Origin: Rhodobacter sp.
GTDB lineage: Bacteria; Pseudomonadota; Alphaproteobacteria; Rhodobacterales; Rhodobacteraceae
Direction: 5' to 3'
Assembly: GCA_020250175.1 (NCBI GenBank)
Contig: JADCEN010000067.1
Span: 1-41,786, forward strand
Length of the DNA: 41,786 nt
The notes below the pieces were generated by a model. That model ran no database searches. It saw only the letters and a program-made list of their open reading frames with translations, and was not told the origin of the DNA. The translations under genes and the position numbers were made by a program. Shown here in pieces: positions 2,291-16,215 of the stretch; position 1 is the stretch's first letter, and each line of letters starts with the position of its first letter.

Positions 2291-2306
2291 TGCAGGGCGC
2301 GTCCGG

Positions 2307-3365
2307 TCAGGCCAGTTTGCCGCGTGAGGTGACGCTGGCCAATTCCTCCACCATAGTGCCACGGATCAGGTGGACATGGTCGAACAGGTTCGTGACCACG
2401 CAGGCGTGGTTGGGGATAACGCGCACCCGTTCGCCCACCGCGGGCCGGTCGGTGCAGGCTGACAGGTCAACATGTCCATGTTCCTCCGACAGCCCGGTGA
2501 TGACCGCGTCCGGATAGGCGGTGATGCGGCCATGGCCGGGCAGGGGGCAAAGGTCTGCGGCCAGCGCCTTGGATCCGGCGTCAAGGATGGCGCGGGTCTC
2601 GGTCGGGCGGCTGACCACGGTGGCCAGAACCGTCATCGCGCAATCGTCCCAGCCGCCGAGGCCAAAGGCCACTTGCATGCGGTCACTGTAGATGTAGGTG
2701 CCCGGGCGGTGTTCGGTGGCGGCAGTCACCAGATGCGCGCGGTAGAGACCGGGGCTGCCCCCGGCCGAGATCACGGGTGGCGGCAGGCCGGCCTCGGTCA
2801 GCAAGGCACGCGCAGCGATCAGCCAGGCATCTGTCGCGGCCTCGCCATCGCGTGCGGGATAGGTCATCAGGCCGCCAAAGTGCAGGCCCGGCACGTTTGC
2901 GATGCCGCGTGCAAGCGCCAGAGCCTGTTGCCTCGTCTGCACCCCGCACCGCGCTGCGCCGGTATCGCATTCCACCAGCACCGTCAGGGGCGTGTCTGGA
3001 TCGGTGAATGTGGCGGCGTAACCAGCCAGGACGGTGGCATTGTCACAGGTCACCGACAGGGTTACACGGCGTGCCAAGGCGGCAAGCCGCGCAAGTTTGG
3101 CCGCGCCGATGATGTTATAGGGCAGGCAGATGTCGGTCAGCCCGCCATCTGCCATTGCCTCCGCCTCGCCCAGTTTCTGCGCGGTGATCCCGATTGCACC
3201 CAAAGCCAGCTGCGCGCGCGCGAAACGCGGCAGCTTGTGCGTCTTGACATGCGGGCGAAGCCTGAGCCCATGCGCATCGGCGTAGGTCTGCGCGCGCGCC
3301 AGATTGGCTTCGACACGGTCAAGATCGATCAATACGGCGGGGGTTTCGATATCATCTGGGGTCAT
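2307..3365 (-). CDS. D-threonine aldolase-type PLP enzyme (alanine racemase N-terminal fold)
   Basis: A 352-residue PLP enzyme of the D-threonine aldolase / 3-hydroxy-D-aspartate aldolase group. The PLP lysine lies in 'RPHVKTHK' (K41), followed by the TIM-barrel pattern 'ITAQKLGEAEAMADGG'. Near the C-terminus 'PNHAC' (H320 and C322) matches the divalent-metal site of these enzymes, alongside 'EEHGHVDLS'. The family splits D-beta-hydroxy-amino acids into glycine and an aldehyde, or dehydrates related D-amino acids; which applies here cannot be read. Its start overlaps the stop of the SDR upstream by four bases (ATGA at 3362-3365), so the two are translationally coupled. It probably handles a D-amino-acid-like intermediate of the catabolic island. 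Confidence 0.85.
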   Translation of the reverse strand: MTPDDIETPAVLIDLDRVEANLARAQTYADAHGLRLRPHVKTHKLPRFARAQLALGAIGITAQKLGEAEAMADGGLTDICLPYNIIGAAKLARLAALARRVTLSVTCDNATVLAGYAATFTDPDTPLTVLVECDTGAARCGVQTRQQALALARGIANVPGLHFGGLMTYPARDGEAATDAWLIAARALLTEAGLPPPVISAGGSPGLYRAHLVTAATEHRPGTYIYSDRMQVAFGLGGWDDCAMTVLATVVSRPTETRAILDAGSKALAADLCPLPGHGRITAYPDAVITGLSEEHGHVDLSACTDRPAVGERVRVIPNHACVVTNLFDHVHLIRGTMVEELASVTSRGKLA

Positions 3366-4111
3366 GAGATGGCGTCCAAGAACGGCAGGTTTCCCGCCAT
3401 CAGGCCTGCATCCACCGTCAGCGTCGTGCCGGTGATGCCGCTGGCAGCGGGGGAGGCAAGGAAGACCACGGCCGCCGCAACCTCGTCGGTGGTAACAATC
3501 CGGCGCAGGGGATAGATCGCCGCCAGCCTGTCAAGGATCGCGGGGTTGGCCTGCAGGCGGTGCTCCCATGCGGCGGTGCGGATCGAGGCCGGGATCACTG
3601 CGTTCGAGCGAATGCCGTGACGGCCTTCCTCGACCGCAATGGCGCGCGACCAGGCCAGCATCGCGGCCTTGGCTGCGGAATAGGGCGGGTTGCCGTGGTG
3701 GGTCAGGGCGTTGACAGACGAGACGAAGACAAAGGCACGGTTGCCGGTCCCTGCACGCATGGCGGGCAGGAAGGCTTGGGTGAAATGCGCGGCCCCGGTG
3801 AAGTTGCGCGTCAGCTCATCTTCGACCACATCAGGCGTGCAGAGACGGAAGGTTTCCGCCCGCGTCCACCCCGCATTCGAGATGACGGCTGCGGGCGTTC
3901 CTTTGGACAGAATGGTGTCGGCCACCGACAGGGTGGCCACCCTGTCGCGCAGGTCAAAGTGATACGCCTCAGGATGGGCGGAAAGGTCGGCCTCTGGCAT
4001 GTCGCAAGCGATCACCTGCGCGCCGAGGCGTGCCAGAGTGGCGCAGAGCGCGCGCCCGACGCCACCGCCCGCGCCGGTCACCACCACTCTTGCGTCTTGC
4101 AGGTCGATCAT
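3362..4111 (-). CDS. Short-chain dehydrogenase/reductase (SDR)
   Basis: A 249-residue classical SDR. The nucleotide-binding motif is TGAGGGVGR (12-20), the structural NAG is at 79-81, and the catalytic residues are Ser131/132 in 'VFVSS' and Tyr144-x3-Lys148 in 'YSAAK'. The start at 4111 was chosen because the fold begins there ('MIDLQDARVVVTG'); the longer in-frame start at 4204 adds a lysine-rich stretch foreign to the family and would overlap the divergent RidA gene. Asp38 at the end of beta2 ('VIACDMPE') suggests NAD(H) over NADP(H). The 63-base gap to the divergent ridA-like gene probably holds both promoters. The substrate is likely a hydroxyl or keto intermediate of the island; unknown. 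Confidence 0.88.
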   Translation of the reverse strand: MIDLQDARVVVTGAGGGVGRALCATLARLGAQVIACDMPEADLSAHPEAYHFDLRDRVATLSVADTILSKGTPAAVISNAGWTRAETFRLCTPDVVEDELTRNFTGAAHFTQAFLPAMRAGTGNRAFVFVSSVNALTHHGNPPYSAAKAAMLAWSRAIAVEEGRHGIRSNAVIPASIRTAAWEHRLQANPAILDRLAAIYPLRRIVTTDEVAAAVVFLASPAASGITGTTLTVDAGLMAGNLPFLDAIS

Positions 4112-4174
4112 GCGCTTCTTCTTGCGTTTCTGGGCGAGGCGGGCAGGATCACAGCCGCAACAGGAGAATATGCC

Positions 4175-4537
4175 ATGTCCAAGGAAGTCTTCGGAACCAG
4201 CCATGTGCCCTTGTCACCTGCGGTGCGGGCGGGGGATTTCGTCTTTGTGTCGGGGCAGGTGCCCGTTGTGGGCGGCAAGGTGGTGGAGGGTGGCATCGGG
4301 CCGGAAACCCGCGCGGTGCTTGAGAATGTGAAGGCCTGCCTTGCGCTGGCCGGGGCCTCGATGGGCGATGTGGTGAAGACCACCGTTTGGCTGCGTGATC
4401 GCGGCGATTTCCCTGCCTTCAACGCCGTGTATGCCGAATATTTCCCGCACCAGCCCCCGGCACGGTCCACGGCAGAATCACGACTGATGATCGACATCGC
4501 GGTCGAGATCGAGGCCATTGCCTATGCTCCGCGCTGA
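4175..4537 (+). CDS. RidA family (reactive enamine/imine deaminase) protein
   Basis: A 120-residue protein of the YjgF/YER057c/UK114 family. It shows 'GDFVFVSGQVPVVGGKVV', 'NVKACLALAGASMGDVVKTTVW' and the C-terminal signature 'MIDIAVEIEAIAY', with the conserved active-site Arg in 'PPARS'. RidA proteins hydrolyse reactive 2-aminoacrylate-type enamines/imines made by PLP enzymes or by amine oxidation. The ATG at 4175 has AGGAG at 4162-4166. It runs opposite to its neighbours and its 3' end overlaps the 3' end of the monooxygenase gene by 16 bases. Placement between a PLP enzyme and a flavin monooxygenase fits detoxification of an imine from this pathway. It may be a pathway-specific paralogue rather than archetypal RidA. 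Confidence 0.9.
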   Translation: MSKEVFGTSHVPLSPAVRAGDFVFVSGQVPVVGGKVVEGGIGPETRAVLENVKACLALAGASMGDVVKTTVWLRDRGDFPAFNAVYAEYFPHQPPARSTAESRLMIDIAVEIEAIAYAPR

Positions 4538-6294
4538 TCCGGGCCGCCCCAAACAGTCACTGGCAGCCCTTCCATGCGCGCCTTGAGTTGCAGCGCGACA
4601 TGGCGCGAATAGAACCGCGACAGCGCCAGATTGCCGCCGTGAAACCAAAGGTTCTTCACGGCGGTCGGTTTCCACATGTTGCGCAATTCGCCCAGCCATG
4701 GCCCCGGATCGCCGCGCACGCCGGACCCCAAGCCCCAGCAGGGGCCGACAGCTTCGGCCGCCGCATCCGAGACGATGCCCGCCACCGTCCGGTGCATCGA
4801 CTGATAGCCGGTGCAGGCCACCACCACATCTGCCGCAACCGTTCTGCCGTCGTCCAGCACCACCCCTTCGGGCACCACCCGCGCCACGCCATGCCCTGCG
4901 ATAACGCTGATCTGGCCGGTGGCGATCAATTCCGACGCGCCCACGTCGATGTAATAGCCCGACGCGGTGCGCAGCGCCTTCATCATCAGGCCGGAGTCAT
5001 CTTCGCCAAAGTCGAGTTGCATCCCTGAGGCGGCAAGTTGGGCGTAGAAATCGGCGTCCTGCGCGCGGATGCGCCGGTACAGGGCACGCTGGCCATCGGT
5101 GAAGCGCGAAAACGGCGTAGCGGCAGACAAAAGGTCTGCACGGTCCACGTCGATGCCGCGCGCGACGGCCTCTTCCGAGTAGATGTCAAACCCAAGGTCC
5201 ATCAGCGTTTCTGACCGCACCACGCAGGTCGATGACCGCTGAATCAGCGTGACTTCGGCCCCGGCCTCCCACAGATCCACCGCCACATCATGCGCACTTG
5301 ATGCTGCGCCCACGACCAGCGCGCGCTTGCCGACAAAGGCGCGGCCGTCCTGATAGGCGCTGGAATGGATCAGCGTTCCGGCAAAGTTTTCCGCCCCCGG
5401 CCAGTCGATGGCGCGGGGTGGGCCATAGGCACCGGTGGCAAACACCAGTTCGACCGGGCGCAGCGTGGTGGCGCCCTCGGGTCGGCGCACCGTCACCTCC
5501 CAGCGATTGCCCTGCCATACCGCGCTTTCGACGCTCGAGGACAGCCACAGGTCAAGGTCAAGCGCCAGCGCATAGGCCTCGAGCCAGTCGCCCATCTGGT
5601 CCTTGGGGCAGAAGACCGGCCAGTGCGCGGGGAAGGGGATATAGGGCAGATGATCATACCAGACCGGGTCATGCAGCACGAGGCTGCGGTAGCGGTTGCG
5701 CCAGCTGTCGCCTGCGCGCGCGTTCTTTTCGACCACAAGCGCAGGCACGCCAAGCGCCTTGAGCCGTGCGGCCAGCGCCAGCCCACCCTGACCGCCGCCA
5801 ATGATCAGAACCTGCGGCTGCTCCTCGGCCCCCAGTTGCGCGCGGCGACGGGCGCGGGCTTCGGACCAGGTTTCGCGCGTGCGGCTGGCCTTGTGGACGA
5901 TCCCTTTGGGGCGGGTGGCCCCGCGCTTTTCTTCATGGCCGGTCAGGTCAGCGATGGCCGTGAACAGCACATCTGCCAACCCGTCGCGCAGGGTCAGCCG
6001 CCCGGTGCCTTGCGCGGTGGCGGTGGAAAAGGCGATCCATGCGCTGACGGTGTCGCCTTCGCCTTCGGCCGGGCCGACGCGGTGCCAGCCGGTGGGGGCG
6101 GTGCGCGCAAGACAATCGCCCAGCATGGCGGCAATTCGGGCGGGGCCTTCCAGAGTGACAATGTTCCAGGTGAAGGCCAGCAGGTCGCGCCAGGCCGCAT
6201 CTGGGCGAAACAGCGCCGCCGCCCCGGTCACATCGCCTGCTTGCAGCGCAGCATCGAAACGGCCAAGCCACAGATCGATGGCGGCGTCGGACAT
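4522..6294 (-). CDS. Flavin-containing monooxygenase with N-terminal NTF2-like domain
   Basis: A 590-residue two-part protein. Residues 1 to about 125 resemble an NTF2/SnoaL-like domain ('FDAALQAGDVTGAAALFRPDAAW'). Residues 160-590 are an FAD/NAD(P)-dependent monooxygenase: FAD Rossmann motif GGGQGG (166-171), 'YDHLPYIPFPAHWPVF', an FMO-type variant 'FAGTLIHSSAY', a second nucleotide motif 'VVGAASSAHDVA', and 'CTGY' near the C-terminus. The family inserts one oxygen at N, S or carbonyl carbon (YUC/FMO/Baeyer-Villiger type). The start at 6294 has GGGAGA upstream on the minus strand and begins at the domain; an upstream frame to 6351 would overlap the RpiR gene. It lies four bases after the RpiR stop, so they are co-transcribed. 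It probably performs the oxygenation step of the island. Confidence 0.87.
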   Translation of the reverse strand: MSDAAIDLWLGRFDAALQAGDVTGAAALFRPDAAWRDLLAFTWNIVTLEGPARIAAMLGDCLARTAPTGWHRVGPAEGEGDTVSAWIAFSTATAQGTGRLTLRDGLADVLFTAIADLTGHEEKRGATRPKGIVHKASRTRETWSEARARRRAQLGAEEQPQVLIIGGGQGGLALAARLKALGVPALVVEKNARAGDSWRNRYRSLVLHDPVWYDHLPYIPFPAHWPVFCPKDQMGDWLEAYALALDLDLWLSSSVESAVWQGNRWEVTVRRPEGATTLRPVELVFATGAYGPPRAIDWPGAENFAGTLIHSSAYQDGRAFVGKRALVVGAASSAHDVAVDLWEAGAEVTLIQRSSTCVVRSETLMDLGFDIYSEEAVARGIDVDRADLLSAATPFSRFTDGQRALYRRIRAQDADFYAQLAASGMQLDFGEDDSGLMMKALRTASGYYIDVGASELIATGQISVIAGHGVARVVPEGVVLDDGRTVAADVVVACTGYQSMHRTVAGIVSDAAAEAVGPCWGLGSGVRGDPGPWLGELRNMWKPTAVKNLWFHGGNLALSRFYSRHVALQLKARMEGLPVTVWGGPDQRGA

Positions 6295-6298
6295 GGCA

Positions 6299-7219
6299 TC
6301 AGTCTCCCAGTGGTTCCAGCGCCGCACCCCTGCGATGCGTCTGGATGGCATATTTGATCCGCCGCAGGTTCTCGCGCGCGGAAGGGCCGATGCTATAGCC
6401 GGTGGCGGCGGCCAGAAGGTCGATCACCGCCAGAAAGGCAAAGCGTGAGGCCGAGGGTTTCAGCGTGTCGGGGTATTCCGGCACGGCTACGGTAAGCGCC
6501 ATATCCGCTGCACGGGCAAGGTCGCTGCCGGGTGTGGTGATGGCAATGGTCGCGGCGCGGTGGTGGCGCGCCATTTCGACAGCCTCGATCACCTCGCGCG
6601 TGCGGCCTGTTGACGAGATTGCGACAAAGGCATCGCCGGGTCGGCAGGTCGCCACCATCATCCGCGCAAGGTAAGGGTCCTTCAGCGCGGTGACGCCAAG
6701 CCCATAGCGGAACAGCCGGTTCTGCGTTTCCTCGGCAAGCGACGACGACGACCCCCCAAGACCCAGTGCAAACACGCGCCCACCCGATTGCGCCAGAAGC
6801 CCGGCCGCCTGCATCAGCAGGGCGGGGTCAAGCTGCCGTTCGACGGCGTGGATGGCCGCCCGTGCCTCGGACAGCACAGACTCCCAGAATGGCGGCAGGG
6901 CGGCACCCGATGGGGTGGGGGGGGTGGCGTCGGCGGCAAGGTACAGGTCGCCCACCACCAGTGACCGTGCCAGTTGCAGCTTGAAGTCGCGCACCCCCTC
7001 GCAGCCAATGGCGCGGCAGAACCGCGTGACGGTGGGCTGGCTTACGCCCGCGCGCGTTGCGATGTCGGCGTTTGACGCATCGACGGCGGCCTGTACATCG
7101 GACAGCACCGCATCGGCCACCGACTGTTCGGCAGGGCGCAGATCGGGATAGCCGTCCTTGATCCGGGCAATGATGTCCGGCACGGGCACACGCATTCTTG
7201 CGGCTTGCTGCGCTCGCAT
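6299..7219 (-). CDS. RpiR/MurR-family regulator (HTH plus SIS domain)
   Basis: A 306-residue protein. Residues about 15-90 are the RpiR-type HTH ('RPAEQSVADAVLSD', 'IATRAGVSQPTVTRFCRAIG', 'GVRDFKLQLARSL'). Residues about 130-280 form a SIS sugar-isomerase-type ligand domain ('RVFALGLGGSSSSLAEE', 'DAFVAISSTGRTREVIEAV', 'TPGSDLARAAD'). Members sense phosphosugars or other small acids and repress or activate catabolic genes. It is divergent from the ABC transporter operon at 7445 and heads the monooxygenase transcript, the standard place for a local regulator. An alternative start is Met at 7195, which would drop eight residues. The ligand is unknown. Confidence 0.9.
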   Translation of the reverse strand: MRAQQAARMRVPVPDIIARIKDGYPDLRPAEQSVADAVLSDVQAAVDASNADIATRAGVSQPTVTRFCRAIGCEGVRDFKLQLARSLVVGDLYLAADATPPTPSGAALPPFWESVLSEARAAIHAVERQLDPALLMQAAGLLAQSGGRVFALGLGGSSSSLAEETQNRLFRYGLGVTALKDPYLARMMVATCRPGDAFVAISSTGRTREVIEAVEMARHHRAATIAITTPGSDLARAADMALTVAVPEYPDTLKPSASRFAFLAVIDLLAAATGYSIGPSARENLRRIKYAIQTHRRGAALEPLGD

Positions 7220-7444
7220 CCTGCCCCCGTCAATTGCTGATCTGCTTTTGTACTATGTCGGTCTTCCGGCATCAGCGTCAAGTCAATGTGTTGGAAACTT
7301 ACACGGATAAATCTCCATTTCTGGCTTCTAAATGCGACAGTAATTCTCCCTTTTTCCGAATCGTTGACACCCTTGTAAGTGAGCAACATAAATTGCCCCA
7401 GGGAAGCCTGCGCGTCTGCAAGGGCCCGAAAAGAGCGGGGGCTC
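7220..7444. promoter_or_regulatory. Divergent promoter region of the catabolic island
   Basis: This AT-richer intergenic stretch separates the RpiR gene from the transporter operon. On the plus strand TTGACA (7364-7369), 17 bases, then CATAAA (7387-7392) make a plausible sigma-70 promoter for the operon beginning at 7445. ACTTACA at 7297-7303 and its inverse TGTAAGT at 7374-7380 (overlapping the promoter spacer) could be paired half-sites for the regulator. The promoter argues against using the GTG at 7379 as the ATPase start. Operator assignment is inference. Confidence 0.45.
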
Positions 7445-8224
7445 ATGGCGGCGGCAACGGAAGGTGCTCGGCTCAGTATTCGCGGCGCTGGCAAGCGCTA
7501 TGGCGATCTTCAGGCAATTGCCGATGTCAGCCTCGATGTCGGGCACAACACCATCGTATCCATTGTCGGGCCTTCGGGCTGCGGCAAGACAACGCTCTTG
7601 TGGTCAATGTCAGGTCTGCATGGGTTAAGCGAGGGGCAGGTGCAGCTGGACGGCCAGACGATTACTGGCCCACATCCCGACATTGGCCTTGTGTTCCAAG
7701 AGGCGAACCTGCTGCCCTGGCGCAACTTGATGCAGAACATTCTTTTCCCTTGGGAGGTCAAGCGCCAGAAACCGGACATGGCCTGGATCAACCACCTCTT
7801 GGACCGCGTCGGGCTGAAGGGCTTCGAAACCCGGATGCCGCGCGAATTGTCAGGCGGCATGCAACAGCGCGCCTCGATCGTGCGGGCGCTGTCGCTGCGG
7901 CCATCGGTCCTGCTGATGGACGAACCCTTTGGCGCGCTTGATGCCTTTACCCGCGAGGAAATGAACCGTCTGGTCGAAGAAATCTGGCTGGAGACAAAGA
8001 CCACCATCGTGTTCATCACCCATTCGATCGAAGAGGCGATCTTCCTGTCTGACCGGGTTCTGGTCCTGTCGAAGCGCCCCGGCCGGGTGATTGCCGACTA
8101 TCCGGTTCCGTTTGTGCGGCCGCGCAGTCTGAAAACCATGGCCAGCCGTGAGGTGTTCGACCTGACCAACCGGATCAAGGCCGACATCTATGGCCAGACC
8201 ACCCTGCGCGCGGCCGCGGAGTAA
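7445..8224 (+). CDS. NitT/TauT-type ABC transporter ATP-binding protein
   Basis: A 259-residue ABC ATPase with Walker A GPSGCGKTT (42-50), Q-loop 'VFQEANLLPWR', signature LSGGMQQR (135-142), Walker B 'LLMDEP' (156-161) and H-loop His193 in 'FITHS'. 'LLPWRNLMQNI' and 'FITHSIEEAIFLSDRV' are typical of the SsuB/TauB/ThiZ subfamily for sulfonates, nitrate, taurine or pyrimidine precursors. The frame can be extended to a GTG at 7379, but that codon lies inside the putative promoter, so the ATG at 7445 is chosen. It is the first gene of the plus-strand operon; the permease follows after five bases. Confidence 0.93.
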   Translation: MAAATEGARLSIRGAGKRYGDLQAIADVSLDVGHNTIVSIVGPSGCGKTTLLWSMSGLHGLSEGQVQLDGQTITGPHPDIGLVFQEANLLPWRNLMQNILFPWEVKRQKPDMAWINHLLDRVGLKGFETRMPRELSGGMQQRASIVRALSLRPSVLLMDEPFGALDAFTREEMNRLVEEIWLETKTTIVFITHSIEEAIFLSDRVLVLSKRPGRVIADYPVPFVRPRSLKTMASREVFDLTNRIKADIYGQTTLRAAAE

Positions 8225-8229
8225 CGACA

Positions 8230-9063
8230 TTGACCGATGCCATTCCTGAATTCCGCAAATCTCAATCGGGCGCCGGGGTCGGCCTTGCGGGTGTTTCGCT
8301 TGCTGCGGGCACAGGGGCGCGGACACGGAAAGAAATCGCGATCATTATCCTGGTGGCGGTGATCGTGATCGGCGGGCTAGAGGTCTTGCTGCGCTGGTTT
8401 GAGGTGCCGCATTACATCTTGCCGCCGCCATCGGCCATCATGGCAGCACTGGTCAAGGAATTTCCGCTGCTTTTGCCGCATTTGCGCGATACGCTGATCT
8501 GTCTGTTCGCAGGCTTTGGCATAGGGGCGAGCATCGGTCTGGTTCTGGCTGCAGTGGTCACCCAGAAACCCTTCGTCGAGAAGGTGATAACCCCCTATAT
8601 CCTGATCCTCGTTACCACGCCGATGCTGGCGCTGGTGCCGCTGCTTATCCTGCGCTTTGGATTTGGCTACAGCCCGCGGATCATCGCAGTGGCGCTTGCC
8701 GCCGGGCCGATGGTGATGATCAACGCCGCCACCGGTTTCCGCCGCACCGACAGCGCCAAGATCGCGCTGGCACGCAGCTATGGCGCGTCCGTCCTGCAGA
8801 TTTTCTGGAAGATCCGCGCGCCAATGGCGATGCCGATGATCCTTGTCGGGCTGATGATCGGCGCGATCTTTGGCCTGTTGACCTGTGTGGGTGCGGAAAT
8901 GGTGGGTGGCGGGTTCGGCCTTGGCAACCGTCTTACGACATACTCCAGCATGATCAACATGCCCGAGTTCTTTGCAGTGATCATGATCCTTTCGATCATG
9001 GGTATCCTTCTCTACGTCCTGTTTTTCCTGATCGGCAAGAAGTGGGCAAGCTGGGAAGCCTGA
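8230..9063 (+). CDS. NitT/TauT-type ABC transporter permease
   Basis: A 277-residue membrane protein starting at TTG 8230, preceded by GGAG inside the end of the ATPase gene. About six hydrophobic segments are visible, the first around residues 35-55 ('EIAIIILVAVIVIGGLEVLL'). The EAA-type coupling loop is 'ARSYGASVLQIFWKIRAPMAMP', which contacts the ATPase. 'HYILPPPSAIMAAL' near the N-terminus is common in SsuC/TauC/ThiX proteins. The N-terminal 30 residues are Gly/Ala-rich and cytoplasmic. It forms the importer with the flanking ATPase and binding protein. The substrate is not set by the permease sequence. Confidence 0.92.
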   Translation: MTDAIPEFRKSQSGAGVGLAGVSLAAGTGARTRKEIAIIILVAVIVIGGLEVLLRWFEVPHYILPPPSAIMAALVKEFPLLLPHLRDTLICLFAGFGIGASIGLVLAAVVTQKPFVEKVITPYILILVTTPMLALVPLLILRFGFGYSPRIIAVALAAGPMVMINAATGFRRTDSAKIALARSYGASVLQIFWKIRAPMAMPMILVGLMIGAIFGLLTCVGAEMVGGGFGLGNRLTTYSSMINMPEFFAVIMILSIMGILLYVLFFLIGKKWASWEA

Positions 9064-9105
9064 AACAAACCCGGCGCAATCCAATACAACATGGGAGTGA
9101 CCGAG

Positions 9106-10263
9106 ATGACAGATCTGAGAACCGGCCCCGGGCTTACCCGGCGGAAACTATTGCAGATCACTGGTGGCGGTATCGTGGTTTCGAGCCTTGGGCTCCGGAC
9201 CGCAATGGCCACCCCCTATGACCGCCCTTTCATCTGGATCAGCCCGCGCGGCACGCTTGAGGTGTTGGACGATTACGGCTTCTGGGTGGGCAAGAAGATG
9301 GGCTATTTCGGCGACCTGTCGATCGACATGCAGCCCGGCCCGTCGGATGGCACAGCCACGGTCAAGTTCGTCGATGTGGGTCAGGCCGACATGGGCTTTC
9401 CTTCGCCCGGGGTGTTCTCTTTCGCGCTGCGCGAAGGGATGAATCTGAAATCGGTGTTCCATACGGCAGCGCGCGATACCTTCAGCCTGGCCTTCCGCAA
9501 GGGTGAGGGCCCCGCCGACATCAAGGCGATCGAGGGCAAGACGATCCTGCTTGGATCGGCTGCCTGGCAGCCGATCGTCGACCCGATGCTGGCCGCGCAG
9601 GGCGTTGACATCTCGACCATCAACTACGTCGAGGCGGGCTGGCCGACTTGGGGCACGGCCCTGGCCGGCGGTCAGGGCGACGCGGCGCTGTCTTGGGAAG
9701 GGCTGCGGGCCGAGTGGATCGCCACCGGGCTGGAGTTCGAGTACTGGCTGGGTGTGCAGAACTCTCCCCTGCCTGCGAACACCTTTGTCGTGCGTGCCGC
9801 CGATCTCGAAGACCCGGACAAGAAGGCGTTCATGGGCCAGTACCTCAAGGGCTGGGCCATGGGGATGGAGTTCGCCGAACACAACCCGCAAGCCGCCGTG
9901 CAAGCCGTGTTCGACCAGTTCCCGACGCTGGGCCAGAACGTTGGCCCCAAGCAGGGCTGCATGTCGCTGATCCAGCAGGCCAATGTCTTCCGTGGCGACA
10001 TGTCGAAGCGGCAGGGCTGGGGCTGGCATGACATGGCGTCGTGGCAGAGCTTCTTCGACCTGACCGCCCAGATCGGCCAAACCGAAGTCATCAAGGCCGA
10101 GGATGTTTGCACCAACGACCTGATCGCGGAGGCCAACAGCTTTGACCTTGAGAAGGTCAAGGCCGATGCGGCGGCGGCGGGCGTGCCGCCAGGCTTTGAG
10201 GATATCAACGTCGACGAAATTCGCGCCACGATGTTCGATCAGGCGATCGGCGCGAAAGGCTGA
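9106..10263 (+). CDS. NMT1/THI5-like ABC substrate-binding protein, Tat-exported
   Basis: A 385-residue periplasmic binding protein. The N-terminus has a twin-arginine signal 'LTRRKLLQITGGG' with probable cleavage after 'TAMA'. The mature part shows an NMT1/THI5-like layout: 'GYFGDLSIDMQPGPSDGTATVKFVDVGQADMGF', then 'KAIEGKTILLGSAAW' and 'LSWEGLRAEW'. Such proteins bind pyrimidines, sulfonates, nitrate or similar small N- or S-compounds. The start at 9106 is preferred over 9091, because GGGAGTG lies just upstream of 9106 and places the Tat motif near the N-terminus. The Tat route suggests folding before export. It supplies the permease encoded upstream, and a strong stem-loop follows the gene. 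Confidence 0.88.
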   Translation: MTDLRTGPGLTRRKLLQITGGGIVVSSLGLRTAMATPYDRPFIWISPRGTLEVLDDYGFWVGKKMGYFGDLSIDMQPGPSDGTATVKFVDVGQADMGFPSPGVFSFALREGMNLKSVFHTAARDTFSLAFRKGEGPADIKAIEGKTILLGSAAWQPIVDPMLAAQGVDISTINYVEAGWPTWGTALAGGQGDAALSWEGLRAEWIATGLEFEYWLGVQNSPLPANTFVVRAADLEDPDKKAFMGQYLKGWAMGMEFAEHNPQAAVQAVFDQFPTLGQNVGPKQGCMSLIQQANVFRGDMSKRQGWGWHDMASWQSFFDLTAQIGQTEVIKAEDVCTNDLIAEANSFDLEKVKADAAAAGVPPGFEDINVDEIRATMFDQAIGAKG

Positions 10264-10272
10264 ACCACGGTC

Positions 10273-10304
10273 GGCGGCGCTCATCCTGCGGGATGAGTGC
10301 CGCC
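10273..10304 (+). promoter_or_regulatory. Intercistronic stem-loop after the binding-protein gene
   Basis: A 14-base-pair stem (10273-10286 with 10291-10304) closed by a TGCG loop, with a single G.U pair, lies ten bases after the binding-protein stop and about 28 before the next start. It has no T-run, so it is more likely a 3' mRNA-stabilising or attenuating hairpin, as often found after binding-protein genes, than a strong terminator. The downstream genes follow in the same direction. Confidence 0.6.
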
Positions 10305-10332
10305 CGCCACCCCATCAAAGGAGACCGCTGTG

Positions 10333-11412
10333 ATGACGCCTGTGCGAATCCTTGTCGTGGGCCTGGGCAACATGGGGGCGTCCCATGCCAGCGCCTACCA
10401 TCGAAACCCCGGCTTTCAGATTGTGGGTCTCTGTTCGCGTACCATCACGTCCAGGGCGATCCCCGAGGAGTTGAACGGGTATCCGCTGTTCGAGGACTAT
10501 GAGGCGGCGCTTGCCGCGCTTAAGCCCGACGCGGTGTCGATCAACACCTGGCCCAATACACATGCCGACTATGCCATCAAGGCAATGGAGGCGGGGGCGC
10601 ATGTGTTCATGGAAAAACCCGTCGGCACGACCAATGCCGAGGCCGAGGCGGTGGTGGCCACAGCCCGGCGGCTGAAGCGCAAACTGGTGCTTGGCTATAT
10701 CCTGCGCGTACACCCAAGCTGGGAGAAGTTCATCGAGATCGGCAAGTCGATGGGCAAGCCCTTGGTCATGCGGCTGAACCTGAACCAGCAGTCATCTGGA
10801 GATGCGTGGTTCTGGCACAAGAACCTGATCGACAGCCTGATCCCCATCGTGGATTGCGGCGTGCATTACGTTGACGTTATGTGCCAGTTGACGGGTGCAA
10901 AGCCCGTCCGCGTGCATGGCATTGGAGCAGCACTTTGGGCTGAAGCTGACAAGCAGAACTACGGCCACCTGCACGTGACCTTCGATGATGGCTCAGTCGG
11001 CTGGTACGAGGCGGGCTGGGGGCCGATGATGTCGGAAACCGCTTTCTTCGTGAAAGATATTGTGGGCCCGAAGGGATCGGTCAGTCTCGTTCCGGACGAT
11101 CACGCCAGGTCGGGTGAAGAAGACCTGTCAGACAGCGCCAATATCGACAAGCACACCAGGACCGATGTCATTCGCGTCCACCATGCTGCTGTTGGCGAGG
11201 ATAAGCATTTCCTGAAGAAGGACGAGATTCTGCGCATGGCCGACGAACCCGGCCATCAGGAATTGTGTGACCGCGAGCAGGCCTATTTCCTGCGTGCGAT
11301 CCGCGAAGACCTGGATCTGTCGGAAAGCATGGATGCCGCCGTCAATTCGCTGCGCATTGTGCTGGCCGCAGAACAGTCGATTGCCGAGGAACGGGTTATC
11401 CGTCTGGACTGA
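10333..11412 (+). CDS. Gfo/Idh/MocA-family dehydrogenase
   Basis: A 359-residue oxidoreductase. The N-terminal Rossmann motif is 'VVGLGNMGASHASAY' (GxGxxG); 'MEKPVG' is the family EKP motif with the catalytic/cofactor-contacting lysine; 'DCGVHYVDVMCQLTG' corresponds to the D-x3-H substrate region of the C-terminal alpha/beta domain. Members oxidise or reduce cyclic polyols, sugars or related compounds with NAD(P). The start is ATG 10333, with AGGAG about eight bases upstream; GTG 10330 is an alternative. It sits between the transporter and the hydrolases, so it probably acts on the imported compound or an early product; the substrate is unknown. Confidence 0.9.
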   Translation: MTPVRILVVGLGNMGASHASAYHRNPGFQIVGLCSRTITSRAIPEELNGYPLFEDYEAALAALKPDAVSINTWPNTHADYAIKAMEAGAHVFMEKPVGTTNAEAEAVVATARRLKRKLVLGYILRVHPSWEKFIEIGKSMGKPLVMRLNLNQQSSGDAWFWHKNLIDSLIPIVDCGVHYVDVMCQLTGAKPVRVHGIGAALWAEADKQNYGHLHVTFDDGSVGWYEAGWGPMMSETAFFVKDIVGPKGSVSLVPDDHARSGEEDLSDSANIDKHTRTDVIRVHHAAVGEDKHFLKKDEILRMADEPGHQELCDREQAYFLRAIREDLDLSESMDAAVNSLRIVLAAEQSIAEERVIRLD

Positions 11413-11445
11413 ACCGCGTCGCCACCTGGCGCATTTGGGGGTGCC

Positions 11446-12870
11446 ATGGGCAGTATTGACGACCTCTACCGCAGCGCCGATGCGGTGGCGCTGGCCGGTC
11501 ACGTGCGGGCGGGCGAGGTGAGCGCGGCCGAACTGACCGAGGCTGCGATCCGCGCCATCGAGGCGCTGAACCCGCGCCTGAACGCGGTCATCCACCGGCT
11601 TGATGATATGGCGCGCAAGCAGGTGGCGGCGGGCGTGTCCGGGCCGCTGGCGGGTGTGCCCTATCTGTTGAAAGAGCTTGCCTCCAGTTGGACCGGGGCG
11701 CCGGTCACCAATTCCAGTCGCTACCTGCGGGATCAGATCGCAACTTCTGACAGCACTGTCGTCGGCCGGATCAAGGCGGCCGGGCTGGTGCTGGTGGGCA
11801 AATCGAACGCGCCGGAAAATGGCTGGTCCATCGCAACCGAGCCAGTGTTGTACGGCCCGACGCTGAACCCATGGGACGCAAGTGTGACCCCCGGCGGGTC
11901 CAGCGGTGGAACAGCGGCGGCGGTGGCGTCGGGCATGGTTCCCATCGGCGAATCCAGCGATGGGGCAGGGTCCATCCGGGTTCCGGCCTCGTGCTGCGGG
12001 GTGGTGGGGCTGAAACCTTCGCGGGGGCGGGTGACGCTGGCACCGCTGGCTGACTATTGGATGGGCGGGGCGTATTTCCTGTGCAATTCACGCACGGTGC
12101 GCGACACAGCCACCTATCTGGACGCCGTGGCCGGTGGCCTGCCGGGTGACCCTTACCCTTGTCCATTGCCCGACCGCCCCTTTGCCGATCTGGCGCGCGA
12201 AGTGCCAAAGGGCCTGCGCGTTGGGTTCACAGTGTCTGACCCAACCGGAAACCCTGTCCATCCCGATGTCGCTACTGCGGTCCGCGCCACAGCCCGCACG
12301 CTGGAGGGGCTGGGCCACCACGTCAGCGAATACGACATGACGACCGACCTTGGCCTGCTGTGGCGCAGCTACACCGACATGTCGGTGGTCGAGGCAGCAG
12401 GGTTTTGGGACTGGATGGAAACCGTCACCGGCCGTCCTGTCACCCCGGAAGAGGTCGAGCCGGTGACCTGGGCGATCATCAAGCGCGGCCGCGCCACCAT
12501 GGCCACAGCGCATGCCGGGCGGGTGGAGCAATTGCGCCAGACCGGCCGCGCCATCGTGACCGAGCTTTTGCCCTTCGATATCTACCTGACCCCAACGCTG
12601 ACCCAGCCGCCCCGGCCCGCAGGGTTCTATGACATGTCGCTGACCGATCTGGACGCCTATAACGCGCTGTGGGCGGATGCGGTGTTCATGGCCCCCTTCA
12701 ATGTCTCGGGCCAACCGGCAATGTCGTTGCTGCTTGGCATGGCGGGGCATCTGCCGGTGGGTGTGCAGGTGGTTGGATGCCCCGGCGATGAGGCGACAGT
12801 GCTGCAGGTGGCAAGTTTGCTGGAGCAGATGATGCCTTGGCGCGACCGGAACCCGCCGGTCCGGTTGTAG
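11446..12870 (+). CDS. Amidase signature-family hydrolase
   Basis: A 474-residue amidase with a recognisable Ser-cisSer-Lys triad: Lys76 in 'PYLLKELAS', cis-Ser at 152 in 'GGSSGG', and the nucleophile Ser176 in 'SSDGAGSIRVPAS'. The spacing of 24 residues between the two serines fits the family. The motif 'KEL' replaces the common 'KDL', a mild deviation. These enzymes cleave carboxamides to acid plus ammonia or amine; some are GatA, but the lone gene in a catabolic operon argues against tRNA amidotransferase. It starts at ATG 11446, 33 bases after the dehydrogenase. It would release nitrogen from the substrate of the island; the substrate is not known. Confidence 0.9.
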   Translation: MGSIDDLYRSADAVALAGHVRAGEVSAAELTEAAIRAIEALNPRLNAVIHRLDDMARKQVAAGVSGPLAGVPYLLKELASSWTGAPVTNSSRYLRDQIATSDSTVVGRIKAAGLVLVGKSNAPENGWSIATEPVLYGPTLNPWDASVTPGGSSGGTAAAVASGMVPIGESSDGAGSIRVPASCCGVVGLKPSRGRVTLAPLADYWMGGAYFLCNSRTVRDTATYLDAVAGGLPGDPYPCPLPDRPFADLAREVPKGLRVGFTVSDPTGNPVHPDVATAVRATARTLEGLGHHVSEYDMTTDLGLLWRSYTDMSVVEAAGFWDWMETVTGRPVTPEEVEPVTWAIIKRGRATMATAHAGRVEQLRQTGRAIVTELLPFDIYLTPTLTQPPRPAGFYDMSLTDLDAYNALWADAVFMAPFNVSGQPAMSLLLGMAGHLPVGVQVVGCPGDEATVLQVASLLEQMMPWRDRNPPVRL

Positions 12871-12879
12871 GGGGTGGCA

Positions 12880-14004
12880 ATGCACGATCTTGTTTTGAAG
12901 GGCGGGCGGGTTATCGACCCGACCAACGGGATCGACGGCCCCGCTGATGTGGCCTTCACCGGGGGCCGGGTAGCCGCTGTCGGGCAGGGGCTGACGGGTC
13001 GCGAGGTGCAGGACGTCAGCGGCCTGATCGTGACGCCCGGCCTGATTGACCTGCACACCCATGTCTACTGGGGCGGCACCTCGCTGGGGGTTGAGGCTGA
13101 CGCCTATTCCCGCCAGTCCGCCATCACCACCGTCGCCGATACCGGCAGCGCCGGGCCAGGCAACTTTCCCGGCTTTCGCGCCCATGTCATCGACAAGGCC
13201 CGGGTGCGGGTGCTGGTTTATCTGCATGTATCCTTCGCTGGGATTTACGCGTTCTCTCCCACCATCATGGTGGGCGAAGCGCAGGATATGCGGTTGATGG
13301 CCGTGCGCGAAGCGCTGGCGGTGGCCCGTGCGAACCCCGACGTCATCATCGGCATCAAGGTGCGGGTTGGCCGCAATGCCTCGGGCCCATCGGGCATCCA
13401 GCCGTTGGACGTGGCGCTGGATCTCGCCGACCGGGCAGGTCTGCCGCTGATGTGCCATATCGACGAACCGCCGCCGACCTATGCCGATGTTGTCGATCGC
13501 CTGCGTCCGGGTGACGTGCTGACCCACTGCTTCCGCCCCTTTCCCAACGCCCCGGTCAATGGCGAAGGTCGCCTGCGCGAGGCCGTGCTGCGCGCCAGGG
13601 CGCGTGGCGTGTTCTTCGACGTGGGCCACGGCATGGGCTCGTTTTCATGGGACAGCGCGCGCAAGGCACTGGCGGCGGGATTCGTGCCGGATACAATTTC
13701 CTCTGACATCCACGCCATGTGCATTGCAGGCCCCGCCTGGGATCTGTTGCGCACGATGACCAAGTTCCTGTCGCTGGGCCTTTCGCTGAGCGAAGTCATC
13801 GCCGCTACCACCGCCCGCGCGGCCTTGGCGCTGCGCCGTCCCGAGCTTGGGCATCTGGGTGCCGGGGCTGCGGGGGATGCGTCTGTGCTGGAACTGGCCG
13901 AAATGCCAACACCGCTTGAGGATGTGCTGGGCGAGGTCGTTGACTGGCCTCAGCGTTTGGTTCCGCGTGGCATGGTGATCGGTGGCCGGTGGGAGACATT
14001 GTAG
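12880..14004 (+). CDS. Dihydroorotase-like metal-dependent amidohydrolase (COG3964/EF_0837-type)
   Basis: A 374-residue amidohydrolase-superfamily enzyme. It begins 'MHDLVLKGGRVIDPTNGIDG' and carries the beta1 metal motif HTH (His59-Thr-His61), a probable carboxylated lysine in 'IIGIKVR', histidines in 'MCHIDEPP' and 'LTHCF', and the beta8 Asp in 'SSDIH'. This pattern fits the COG3964 group related to dihydroorotase; characterised members hydrolyse acetylated hydroxy acids or N-acyl compounds. The ATG at 12880 is preferred over the GTG at 12874, with GGGGG just upstream. It follows the amidase after nine bases. Role: ring-opening or deacylation within the island, inferred. Confidence 0.87.
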   Translation: MHDLVLKGGRVIDPTNGIDGPADVAFTGGRVAAVGQGLTGREVQDVSGLIVTPGLIDLHTHVYWGGTSLGVEADAYSRQSAITTVADTGSAGPGNFPGFRAHVIDKARVRVLVYLHVSFAGIYAFSPTIMVGEAQDMRLMAVREALAVARANPDVIIGIKVRVGRNASGPSGIQPLDVALDLADRAGLPLMCHIDEPPPTYADVVDRLRPGDVLTHCFRPFPNAPVNGEGRLREAVLRARARGVFFDVGHGMGSFSWDSARKALAAGFVPDTISSDIHAMCIAGPAWDLLRTMTKFLSLGLSLSEVIAATTARAALALRRPELGHLGAGAAGDASVLELAEMPTPLEDVLGEVVDWPQRLVPRGMVIGGRWETL

Positions 14005-15183
14005 ATGACGCGGGTCTCCGTTTGGGCTTACCCTTGGGACTTGCACGACATCGGGCTTGACACCGCGCTGGACCGCGTCGCACAGGCGGGTGGCGATTGC
14101 GTCAGCTTGGCCACCTCGTACCATGCTGGCCGCTTCCTGCAGCCAGGAAACCCGCGCCGTAGGGTCTATTTCCCGCAGGACGGCACGGTCTACTACCGCC
14201 TCGACCCCACACGCTGGAAGGGCCGGACAATCCGGGCTCTGCAGGCCGATGTGGTGGCAGCAGAGGGCGATTATCTGGCGGCACTGGTCGACCGGCGCAA
14301 CGCTGGCGGATTACAGGTCAGCTGCTGGACCGTTTGCCTGCACAACACGCGGCTTGGGATGGCGCATCCGGATCATGTCATGCGCACCGCCCATGGCGAC
14401 CCGCATTTCTATGCGCTGTGCCCCGGCAGTCCCGCTGCGCGTGACTATGTGGCGACCTTGGTGCGCGAGGTGGCCGAGGTCTATGCACCGGACCGGATCG
14501 AATTGGAAACCCCTGAATTCATGGGATTTTCCCATGGTTTCCACCACGAGAAGGACGGCCTTGGCCTGACGCCCGAGGAAGATTTTCTGTTGGGCTTGTG
14601 CTTTTGCGACCATTGCCGACAGGCGGCAACCTCTGCCGGGGTACCCTTTGACGAGGCCCGGGTGCGGGTCGTGGAATTGCTGGATGCGGCCTTTGCCCGT
14701 GCGCTGCCACAGCGCAGTTTTCCCGATTTCCCAGCCGCAGGCCTTGCCGCTTTTGACGCCGAGCCTGCGCTGGCCGCCTTCTTGCGCTGGCGACCGCAGG
14801 CGGTGACAGAGTTGGTGGCGCAGGTCGCCGCCGAGGTACCGGGTGCGACCGAACTGGCGGTCATTGATTATGACGGATCATGGACCGGTGGGCTGGACAT
14901 CGCGGCCCTTGCCCCGCATCTGGGCGGCGCTCTCTACTGTGCCTACTTTGCTGCGCCTGCACAGATTGGCGCATTGCTGGCCCCGGTGAAGGCCGCGCTT
15001 GGCCCGGGCAAGCAGCTGTCAGCGGGGTTGCAGGTGTTCCACCCCAACCTTGCCGATGCTCAGGACCTCGCAGCCCGTGTCGCCGCGGCCAAGGCCTGCG
15101 CCGACGGTCTGAACTTCTACAACCTTGGTCTCGTGCCGCCAGCGCGGCTGGCCTGGATACATGACGCGCTGCGTTTGGCCTGA
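14005..15183 (+). CDS. Uncharacterised protein, probable TIM-barrel hydrolase fold
   Basis: A 392-residue protein whose ATG follows the previous stop with no gap, implying translational coupling. I do not recognise a named family. It begins 'MTRVSVWAYPWDLHDIGLD', then 'SLATSYHAGRFLQP', 'HPDHVMRTAHGDPHFYALCPGSP', 'PDRIELETPEFMGF', and a 'CFCDHC' cluster at about 199-204. The alternation of hydrophobic strands and acidic residues ('IELETPE', 'AVIDYDGSW') resembles GH-like TIM-barrel proteins, in which such a CxCxxC often sits after a catalytic acidic loop and may bind metal. There is no signal peptide, so it is cytoplasmic. As the last gene of the operon it probably takes part in the same pathway. 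Function unknown. Confidence 0.75.
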   Translation: MTRVSVWAYPWDLHDIGLDTALDRVAQAGGDCVSLATSYHAGRFLQPGNPRRRVYFPQDGTVYYRLDPTRWKGRTIRALQADVVAAEGDYLAALVDRRNAGGLQVSCWTVCLHNTRLGMAHPDHVMRTAHGDPHFYALCPGSPAARDYVATLVREVAEVYAPDRIELETPEFMGFSHGFHHEKDGLGLTPEEDFLLGLCFCDHCRQAATSAGVPFDEARVRVVELLDAAFARALPQRSFPDFPAAGLAAFDAEPALAAFLRWRPQAVTELVAQVAAEVPGATELAVIDYDGSWTGGLDIAALAPHLGGALYCAYFAAPAQIGALLAPVKAALGPGKQLSAGLQVFHPNLADAQDLAARVAAAKACADGLNFYNLGLVPPARLAWIHDALRLA

Positions 15184-15186
15184 ACC

Positions 15187-16215
15187 AGCACCCTCCGGCC
15201 CGGAAGCAATTTGAGCATTCCTGGCTTGTGAAAAGGTCGCAGACCCGTCCGACCTGTTTTCAGAGCGCTTGGTCTGTCCTTGCAGCAGCCTTGCGGATCA
15301 GGGTTTTCAGCTTGGAGATCATGCGGGCATGAACGCCACTGATGGAGCGGATGAGTGGGGCGGCAGGAAGAGGAACTCGCAGCCTTTGGCCGTCAGCCGT
15401 TCGACCACGCGGGGCGACTTGTGGGAAGAGAGGTTGTCGGCCACCACGACCTGGCCGGGCTTGAGGGCGGGGACGAGTTGCTTTTCCACACAGGTCCCGA
15501 AACTGGCGCGGTACATGGCACCGTCCAGTACCCACGGCGCGATCAGGCCGTCGTGGCCGAGGCCGGCGATGAAAAGTGAGGCGCGCCAGGAAATCTGTCC
15601 GGTGGACAGATTTCCGCGCCGAACGGGCAGAGCCCCGGACTGCGTATTCCAATGGCCGAAGGGGGCACGGTCGATCAGTCGCTGGCCGACCAATGCCCAG
15701 CCCGCTGTTTTGACGGGATTGGTCCTGAGTGAGGTTTCATCGATAAAGACAAGCCTGTCCAGCATGTCAGCAAAAGGCAGGCTGGCGCTTTTCAATCCGG
15801 GCCTTGCGCCGCTCGGCCAGGTCGGGACGCAACCATTCGCTGGCGGGCAGAGTTTCTTTTCCGGCAAAGGCCAAGCCGGTGCAGCCATTTGCCGACCAAG
15901 CCGCGATGCACCGGCACGTCGTGAACCGGGGCCATTGCCCCGACGATCCCGTTCCGTGTCAGGTCGCCCTTGGCAACCAGCCGCGCGTGCAGCCAAGTGG
16001 CGAAAGGGGCCAACTTGCCCTTCGCACGGTTCCCCTGCGCTTTTTGGCAGCAGGCCACCGCTTTCACGTTTCAGGGTGACCATGTTCATTCACAAAGCGC
16101 GGCGACACCCGAAAGTGCCGGGCGGCCTCTCTGTGCCCGCGCCTCTCCTTACCAAAGGCGATGTCACGGCTGCGAAGGTCCACAGGATGTGCCTTGCGCA
16201 ATCTTGCCCCCTGTA
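15187..16215 (-). pseudogene. Decayed IS630-type transposase
   Basis: On the minus strand a full-length IS630-type transposase can be pieced together from several frames. They are an N-terminal HTH ('GKERRGHREAARHFRVSPRFVNE', about 16190-16085), then 'NMVTLKRESGGLLP', then 'APFATWLHARLVAKGDLTRNG' and 'VHRGLVGKWLHRLGL' (to about 15850), then the catalytic core with 'VFIDETSL', 'VVVADNLSSHKSPR' and 'FLFLPPHS'. The tail 'SKLKTLIRKAAARTDQAL' continues past a stop into 'KQVGRVCDLFT'. At least three frameshifts and one nonsense codon make it inactive. It ends just beside the last gene of the catabolic operon, so it may mark an island boundary. Confidence 0.82.

Follow-up and report, generated by a model that had tools for sequence, protein, structure and literature searches.

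A conserved gene cluster of Rhodobacteraceae, possibly for the breakdown of N-acylated amino-sugar derivatives, compared with the ong pathway

Among described systems, the closest to the locus considered here is the ong cluster of Pseudoalteromonas prydzensis, an oxidative chitin/GlcNAc1A pathway under an RpiR repressor, whose fold-type III pyridoxal phosphate (PLP) deaminase OngC converts GlcN1A to 2-keto-3-deoxygluconate (KDG) and ammonia and also accepts D-serine and D-threonine; its RidA protein, OngD, is essential, with a role unknown to its authors (PMC9537276). The deacetylase OngB is of the D-aminoacylase type, nearest to 1M7J and 3GIP (PMC12017989). For Natrarchaeobius, a D-glucosaminate route has been proposed beside chitinase genes, with IclR and RutC/RidA genes (PMC12343721), and on the regulatory side RccR of Pseudomonas is an RpiR-family protein that binds 2-keto-3-deoxy-6-phosphogluconate (KDPG) and has paired 15-bp TGTAGT/ACTACA sites (PMC5489143). 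Here we compare with these systems a gene cluster at positions 2307-15183 of a 41,786-nt stretch of Rhodobacter sp. DNA (contig JADCEN010000067.1), the whole of which is called the window and supplies the numbering used throughout.

We read this cluster as a single catabolic unit under common regulation that would handle an N-acylated amino-sugar derivative by a logic like that of ong, a reading to which we give about even weight. It draws on gene content, conservation, co-occurrence, an operator pair and active-site classes, together with one predicted fold. A first-pass annotation of the same DNA had proposed the catabolism of some N-containing compound, with an amide- or ring-containing, amino-acid-like substrate in mind; a single, apparently catabolic unit is borne out, whereas the neighbors of related genes point to amino sugars instead. 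Profile searches of the window's proteins against Pfam and NCBIfam found every part that had been named within 13 kb in its place, with one correction to the layout, in that the RidA gene lies on the plus strand, flanked by minus-strand genes. A NitT/TauT importer is complete within one operon, with its ATPase, its permease and a binding protein of the NMT1 type. Start codons are our choice, that of RidA being set by eye, and the features are as follows.

2307-3365, minus strand: fold-type III PLP enzyme, D-serine/3-hydroxyaspartate dehydratase-like (PF01168 and PF14031); predicted 2-amino-2-deoxy-aldonate dehydratase/deaminase
3362-4111, minus strand: short-chain dehydrogenase/reductase (SDR) oxidoreductase (PF13561/PF00106; top NCBIfam model PRK07074, under its cut-off)
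4175-4537, plus strand: RidA-family enamine/imine deaminase (PF01042, above cut-off)
4522-6294, minus strand: type II flavin monooxygenase (FMO) with N-terminal SnoaL/NTF2 domain (PF13738, PF12680)
6299-7219, minus strand: MurR/RpiR-family regulator, HexR-like (PF01418, HTH_6, and PF01380, SIS)
7289-7303: predicted RpiR operator 1, two mismatches to TGTAAN5TTACA
7374-7388: predicted RpiR operator 2, two mismatches, 85 bp from operator 1
7442-8224, plus strand: ATPase of a NitT/TauT-type ATP-binding cassette importer (PF00005; top NCBIfam models taurine ATPase and SaoA, under cut-offs)
8230-9063, plus strand: permease of the same importer type (PF00528; top NCBIfam models SaoP and SsuC, under cut-offs)
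9106-10263, plus strand: substrate-binding protein (SBP) of the NMT1/THI5 family (PF09084; twin-arginine-like leader by eye)
10333-11412, plus strand: Gfo/Idh/MocA sugar dehydrogenase (GFO; PF01408, PF22725)
11446-12870, plus strand: amidase-signature hydrolase (PF01425)
12880-14004, plus strand: Atu3266-type amidohydrolase (NF006689); predicted N-acyl-D-amino-acid-type deacylase
14005-15183, plus strand: glycoside-hydrolase-like TIM barrel (TIM) by AlphaFold and Foldseek, probably cytoplasmic, of an unnamed family with four conserved Cys

The gene set is one conserved unit and not a row of chance neighbors. With the TIM protein as bait, genome contigs yielded 29 loci (numbered L; several contigs stop inside the cluster), 22 of which bear Rhodobacterales names. 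The amidohydrolase gene directly precedes TIM in 20 of the 29; 10 combine the FMO and all three importer genes (ATPase, permease and SBP) with GFO, the amidase, the amidohydrolase and TIM; and at least one minus-strand enzyme accompanies the importer in 11. Named strains that carry the full cluster include Frigidibacter sp. ROC022, Marivita cryptomonadis CL-SK44 and Oceaniovalibus sp. ACAM 378. The first-pass annotation had suggested this search in other Rhodobacteraceae, and the set recurs with conserved co-occurrence; the possibility raised there, that the transporter operon and the minus-strand genes never occur together, does not hold.

Among 394 genomes of the family (numbered G), with orthologs defined by identities of at least 57% for TIM, 75% for GFO, 63% for FMO and 72% for SBP (the SBP of G212, at 57%, and TIM matches below 57% are left out), TIM occurs in 11, GFO in 12, FMO in 8 and SBP in 9, of which 8 also hold a GFO ortholog; FMO orthologs are clearly separated from paralogs, which reach 54% at most. 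TIM and GFO occur together in 10 genomes (0.3 expected; Fisher p 3e-17), TIM and FMO in 7 (p 9e-12) and FMO and SBP in 8 (p 7e-16), the pairwise p ranging from 3e-17 to 4e-11 in a test that ignores the relatedness of the genomes. There are exceptions: G131 holds the set without FMO and TIM, G290 has GFO adjoining a PLP enzyme and a sugar importer without TIM, G356 has TIM and amidohydrolase, and G393 has FMO and SBP orthologs with a distant TIM on a separate contig. Reduced clusters also exist: in L025, L030, L031 and L035 amidohydrolase and TIM are present but FMO and amidase are missing, and L016, L024 and L031 hold TIM and amidohydrolase alone or with GFO; sugar-type importers replace or accompany the NitT importer in L025, L030 and L035. 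A Dpp-type importer lies downstream of TIM in L014, L020, L021, L025, L026, L030 and L034 (identified through a Pfam match to SBP_bac_5 in L020 and through similarity elsewhere), so that some strains hold two or three importers per cluster, and in L021 a second amidohydrolase copy (12485-13708), 61% identical to that of the window, opens the Dpp-side operon.

The two operons are taken to belong together because they co-occur in these 11 of 29 loci and because paired operators lie between them in all 12 clusters examined, these 12 being the loci whose divergent region falls on the DNA examined. In each, the 15-bp palindrome TGTAA-N5-TTACA occurs twice with at most two mismatches, at a spacing of 81-87 bp in 10 clusters and of 99 bp in L080. 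In L023 the two copies stand 1142 bp apart (2254-3396) with an additional open reading frame between them, an apparent insertion into the regulatory region. Outside the divergent region, the same 12 loci carry 11 matches in 228 kb. At one mismatch, L014 and L021 have three matches each against 0.01 expected from dinucleotide shuffles, and a third site precedes the RpiR gene where this gene sits beyond TIM (L014, L019, L020, L021 and L034). A one-mismatch scan of 35 loci found a site in 21 and none in 14 (the window, L013, L016, L022, L024, L025, L031, L032, L033, L035, L038, L042, L043 and L044); in 8 of the 35, 18 sites were found against 0.65 expected from shuffles that preserved single-base composition only. 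Judging from position and family, the RpiR regulator may bind these palindromes, and the cluster is probably under one sugar-sensing switch.

The PLP enzyme is, by its active-site class, of dehydratase type. Its best-scoring PDB relative is AxDTA (4v15), relative to which Asp349 is replaced by Cys and the loop with the base His193 is missing, and its motif PNHAC matches the D-threo-3-hydroxyaspartate dehydratase 3wqc in alignment. The H-x-C metal site is present in 20 of 21 aligned rows (aligned rows are matches covering at least 75% of the query, and row counts hold up to five duplicates, namely L014=L095, L018=L093, L028=L094, L031=L092 and L035=L091). Chicken D-serine dehydratase and a related protein likewise have His and Cys ligands and no His193 (PMC4401734). 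The earlier label of a D-threonine-aldolase-type enzyme is therefore given up: the AxDTA ligand pair His347/Asp349 is broken by the Cys, the His193 base loop is absent, and the His-x-Cys site is that of the D-serine/3-hydroxyaspartate dehydratase type. BhcC and the beta-hydroxyaspartate cycle were also rejected, at 190 bits against an NCBIfam cut-off of 690. Dehydratases of this class release an enamine, a type of product on which RidA proteins act, and this would account for the RidA gene here. A paralogue of the PLP enzyme (34%) is encoded elsewhere in the genome (C8:113533-114615).

Neighborhoods of relatives were opened on annotated plasmids hand-picked from lists of 20-40 matches. Relatives of the PLP enzyme (55-65%) lie near M81 (MlrC/microcystinase-like), RidA, RpiR and importer genes in four of five such loci and near RidA only in the fifth; the Paracoccus locus includes a KdgK-like kinase (239 bits against a cut-off of 400), and the Loktanella locus NagA, NagB, GH20, ROK and Gfo/Idh. 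In a phylum-wide sample, in which neighbors were judged by similarity to an assembled reference set, 8 of 23 PLP-enzyme loci at 48% identity or more lie near M81, RidA, a sugar/Dpp importer or an amidohydrolase. GFO relatives (53-59%) stand among genes for N-acetylglucosamine (GlcNAc) and N-acetylmuramic acid (MurNAc), namely NagA/MurQ/NagK, in three of five annotated plasmid loci (a sixth record opened carried no annotation). The M81 gene recurs beside PLP dehydratase, RidA and RpiR in L053, L054, L055, L056, L128, L129, L131 and L132, some of which add a KdgK-like kinase or GH20, and this recurrence suggests that M81 may act as a deacylase when amino-sugar acids are broken down. Sites similar to the operators lie near divergent promoters of such M81/PLP-enzyme clusters, at 9026 in L053, at 7437 and 7550 in L054 (two against 0.11 expected; 2 of 100 shuffles reach as many) and, in the form TGTA-N7-TACA, at 4975 and 5005 in L131.

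Relatives of TIM occur in a wider range of settings. The locus on Haloferax pHME505 holds a CUT1 importer, creatininase, TIM, MR/MLE dehydratase, SDR, RidA, Eda and KdgK; those of Haloarcula and Halomicrobium resemble it but lack Eda and KdgK, and that of Haladaptatus is unlike it. The haloarchaeal loci would be consistent with the Natrarchaeobius route (PMC12343721). The Rhizobium tumorigenes locus is likewise unlike that of Haloferax, apart from M81, RpiR and RidA genes at a distance; in Rhizobium leguminosarum and Aureimonas, an aspartoacylase, an alanine-racemase-type PLP enzyme and an amidohydrolase are nearby; the Pannonibacter relative adjoins GH20; and creatininase, CUT1 and M81 occur at three loci of Rhodobacteraceae. 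A DgaE-like ammonia-lyase relative (131 bits against a cut-off of 385) lies downstream of TIM in L014/L095, L019 and L034. A creatininase-family gene accompanies TIM and a CUT1 importer in L044, L058, L059, L082, L088 and L090, in haloarchaea and Rhodobacteraceae alike, an association conserved across domains.

Neither Pfam (at E 0.001) nor NCBIfam (at E 0.1) has a model that matches the TIM protein itself. Its AlphaFold model has a pLDDT of 94 and was built from 26 sequences. The TIM alignment excludes L017 for an internal stop and L037, L039 and L041 for matching in part or not at all, and it also omits L011 and, from the plasmids, L042-L046. The best PDB matches in Foldseek are Cwp19 and the C-terminal domain of PgaB, then GH42, GH35 and GH156 (E 6e-12 to 6e-8, TM to query 0.47-0.59, rmsd 6-11 Å). 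GHL10 (PF02638) is matched weakly by 17 of the 26 members at E up to 1, the best at 4e-6, and the window's own protein scores 17.5 bits against a gathering threshold of 27.9; a profile search of PDB sequences finds GH42 only at E 0.1. Invariant in all 43 aligned rows (about 38 distinct) are Y9, W11, D12, H40, W108, H113, N114, C139, E168, H180, H181, C199, C201, C204, R263 and Y314, from some of which the distant Chloroflexi relative L040 departs; the Cys cluster is GH42-like. With GHL10, PgaB C-terminal and GH42 barrels the protein thus shares the fold and weak GHL10 profile matches, and it differs from them in reaching no Pfam cut-off, in showing no signal peptide by eye and in its candidate catalytic residues. 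What had been labeled an unknown TIM-barrel-like protein is probably an enzyme of the cytoplasm that resembles glycoside hydrolases and has an unusual site, its activity being a prediction from the modeled fold.

The amidohydrolase scores 414.5 bits with NF006689 (PRK09237/Atu3266), above the cut-off of 371. Its nearest solved structure is 2ogj (E 1e-59), a sequence-level likeness that extends to the aligned metal ligands, which are intact in 31 of 31 rows; we take 2ogj to be Atu3266, of COG3964 and active on acetyl-(R)-mandelate, for which a literature search found no paper. Although the PDB names the relatives 2ogj and 8wzy dihydroorotases, dihydroorotase and hydantoinase are rejected on the evidence of NCBIfam, which places the protein in the Atu3266 group and leaves the dihydroorotase, allantoinase and dihydropyrimidinase models far under their cut-offs. 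Among its relatives at 55-59%, that on a Mesorhizobium plasmid has uninformative neighbors, and that on a Chelativorans plasmid lies near a Dpp importer and a PLP enzyme whose metal site reads H-x-D. The amidase is nearest to NylA (3a2p) among solved structures, with the Lys-Ser-Ser triad in 19 of 19 aligned rows. GFO has sugar and inositol dehydrogenases and unnamed oxidoreductases as PDB relatives, at E 1e-16 and weaker, and UDP-GlcNAc 3-dehydrogenase as its top NCBIfam model, far under cut-off. The FMO is homologous over its full length, SnoaL domain (PF12680) included, to JsFMO (8acs 28-611 to 6-584, E 2e-186), a type II FMO with an N-terminal extension and the motif FxGxxxHxxx[YF][KR] (PMC10028610), at which the window's protein reads FAGTLIHSSAYQ, by eye, with Q at the final position. 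A paralogue of the FMO (54%) is encoded at C23:208015-209769 of the same genome and is of a type common across the family.

In the pathway proposed here, the NitT-type importer would take in the compound, and the glycoside-hydrolase-like barrel and/or the Gfo/Idh and SDR dehydrogenases would free the amino sugar and oxidize it, yielding a 2-acylamino-2-deoxy-aldonate. Removal of the N-acyl group would fall to the Atu3266-type amidohydrolase and/or the amidase, after which the PLP dehydratase would dehydrate the D-configured 2-amino-3-hydroxy acid and RidA would hydrolyze the enamine or imine, with ammonia and KDG, a 2-keto-3-deoxy acid, as products. KDPG may then be formed and split by KdgK-like and Eda-family proteins from outside the cluster, where the genome has a KdgK-like gene and three PF01081 (Eda-family) genes, and a KDPG-type phosphosugar may lift the HexR/RccR-like RpiR repressor off the paired operators, inducing the cluster. 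The FMO would serve an accessory step. More tentatively, and with doubts that outweigh our confidence, these loci may belong to a route for amino-sugar acids that is not yet described in Alphaproteobacteria, non-phosphorylative and gated by KDPG, with a haloarchaeal cousin. Its entry enzyme would found a new glycosidase-like family with a Glu/His/4-Cys active site, and hydrolases from four or more unrelated families (Atu3266-type, M81/MlrC-like, creatininase and aspartoacylase-like) would stand in for one another at N-deacylation before a shared D-serine-dehydratase-type enzyme and RidA.

Several observations weigh against an amino-sugar derivative as the substrate and against the proposed switch. 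The top-scoring PDB relatives of the PLP enzyme carry aldolase names, 15 of the 23 phylum-sample loci lack any marker neighbor, the KdgK-like kinase does not reach the KdgK model cut-off, and two of the five annotated GFO loci are without GlcNAc/MurNAc genes, one of them beside a PIG-L deacetylase. The genes of 2307-15183 include no kinase (KdgK), aldolase or GH20 (OngA), and the genome has no GH20 (chitinases and lytic polysaccharide monooxygenases were not searched for). NitT/TauT importers are not typical sugar importers, and the aldonate route leaves the FMO, present in full clusters and missing from reduced ones, and the amidase unexplained. As for regulation, the top NCBIfam model of the RpiR protein is HexR at 203.8 bits against a cut-off of 296, and the window's two operators do not by themselves exceed chance (4 sites in the window against 2.3 expected); they are credible because the pair is kept in all 12 clusters. 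The one-mismatch motif has 7 sites in the genome against 18 for a reversed control pattern, which gives no sign of a wider regulon with the strict motif in this genome.

Could the same genes serve another substrate? Breakdown of an amide- or ring-containing, amino-acid-like compound (a cyclic amide, a hydantoin-like compound or a xenobiotic), in which the oxygenase and the pair of C-N hydrolases would carry the main steps, would suit the NitT/TauT importer with its NMT1/THI5 protein, an amidase nearest to the cyclic-amide hydrolase NylA, and an FMO whose ortholog, present in 8 of 394 genomes, is accompanied by TIM in 7. We consider it rather unlikely, given that the amidohydrolase passes the Atu3266 cut-off with the ring-opening models far short, that the four reduced clusters dispense with FMO and amidase and G131 with FMO, and that three of these four have sugar-type importers in place of the NitT importer or next to it. 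Recycling of murein or glycan fragments (a MurNAc/GlcNAc disaccharide or a muropeptide) would make TIM an intracellular glycosidase and leave peptide-bearing forms to the Dpp-type importer downstream; the nearness of the TIM fold to Cwp19 and PgaB, the GFO relatives beside MurQ and the Dpp-type importers downstream of TIM in several clusters all agree with it. The 12 cluster genes include no MurQ, anhydro-MurNAc kinase or peptidase, however, and the end of TIM strand 7 is by eye without an acidic residue, which makes this account clearly unlikely.

A simple N-acyl-3-hydroxy-D-amino acid of the D-serine, D-threonine or 3-hydroxyaspartate type, in place of a sugar acid, is quite improbable as the substrate: it would leave the sugar-type dehydrogenase, the glycoside-hydrolase-like barrel and the sugar importers of sister clusters superfluous, and the BhcC model is far under its cut-off, even though the PLP enzyme aligns with D-threo-3-hydroxyaspartate dehydratase, 15 of 23 of its relatives have no marker neighbors and OngC, too, takes D-serine and D-threonine (PMC9537276). 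That two unrelated operons are neighbors by chance, as clusters reduced to TIM and amidohydrolase alone or with GFO (L016, L024 and L031) might suggest, is so improbable that we reject it: both operons stand together in 11 of 29 loci, each of the 12 clusters examined has the two-site divergent regulatory region, and the 8 genomes that hold an FMO ortholog all fall within the 9 with an SBP ortholog.

On its flanks, the cluster is bordered to the right by an IS630-type DDE_3 match at 15319-16089, where DNA-level matches are short, and to the left by IS5-like DNA at about 7-371; a gene for a Crp/Fnr-family regulator (1072-1836) lies between the left trace and the cluster. The TIM gene was found in none of six same-genus genomes searched, which indicates a patchy distribution. 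The insertion sequence (IS) remnants noted earlier as consistent with acquired DNA are thus present on both sides, but composition gives no sign of foreign origin, as the GC content of the cluster does not differ from that of the rest of the window.

If an amino-sugar-acid route is indeed encoded here, this type of catabolism, described for Gammaproteobacteria, would extend to Alphaproteobacteria and, in a related form, to rhizobial and haloarchaeal plasmids. It would also give a testable role to a glycoside-hydrolase-like family mostly annotated "hypothetical protein" in the plasmid records examined, and a lead on the function of the bacterial M81 (MlrC-like) family, with PLP dehydratase, RidA and operator together serving as a bait set for further such routes.

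Set beside known systems, the regulatory region has in common with HexR/RccR an RpiR-family protein and paired 15-bp TGTA-N7-TACA sites, and differs from the RccR system in serving a local catabolic cluster rather than central metabolism, in arm bases (AA/TT here, GT/AC there) and in spacing, mostly 81-87 bp start to start here and 68 bp apart there (PMC5489143). The M81 clusters on Nitratireductor, Phyllobacterium, Paracoccus and Loktanella plasmids share the PLP enzyme at 55-65%, RidA and RpiR in four of four, SDR in three of four, and a TGTAAN5TTACA-like site with at most one mismatch in four of four (shuffle control in L054 only); in them M81 replaces the amidohydrolase, the importer is CUT1 or TRAP, and no FMO, TIM or amidase is listed. 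A literature search, with most subscription papers outside its coverage, found no paper on the gene set or on the function of the M81 cousin; this lends weak support to the first-pass statement that no pathway with exactly this set is described, whereas a related logic has been described as ong. By analogy, the cluster appears to work like ong but is not ong, since it has neither an OngB-type deacetylase nor the transporters of ong, and neither GH20 nor a kinase of its own. Its deacylase belongs to another amidohydrolase branch than OngB (its solved matches at E 1e-10 are 2ogj, 8wzy, 8je0 and 2ics only), and among the genes of 2307-15183 a NitT importer stands where ong has an SSS importer and TonB receptors (PMC9537276), neither of which was found there. 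Relative to ong, a gammaproteobacterial cluster, this alphaproteobacterial one adds Gfo/Idh, amidase, SDR, FMO and the glycoside-hydrolase-like barrel. Common to both are a MurR/RpiR regulator and RidA and, by prediction for the window's cluster, an amidohydrolase-superfamily N-deacylase and KDG as the product (PMC9537276); the fold-type III PLP enzyme, by its fold and dehydratase-type metal site, is a candidate for the slot of OngC.

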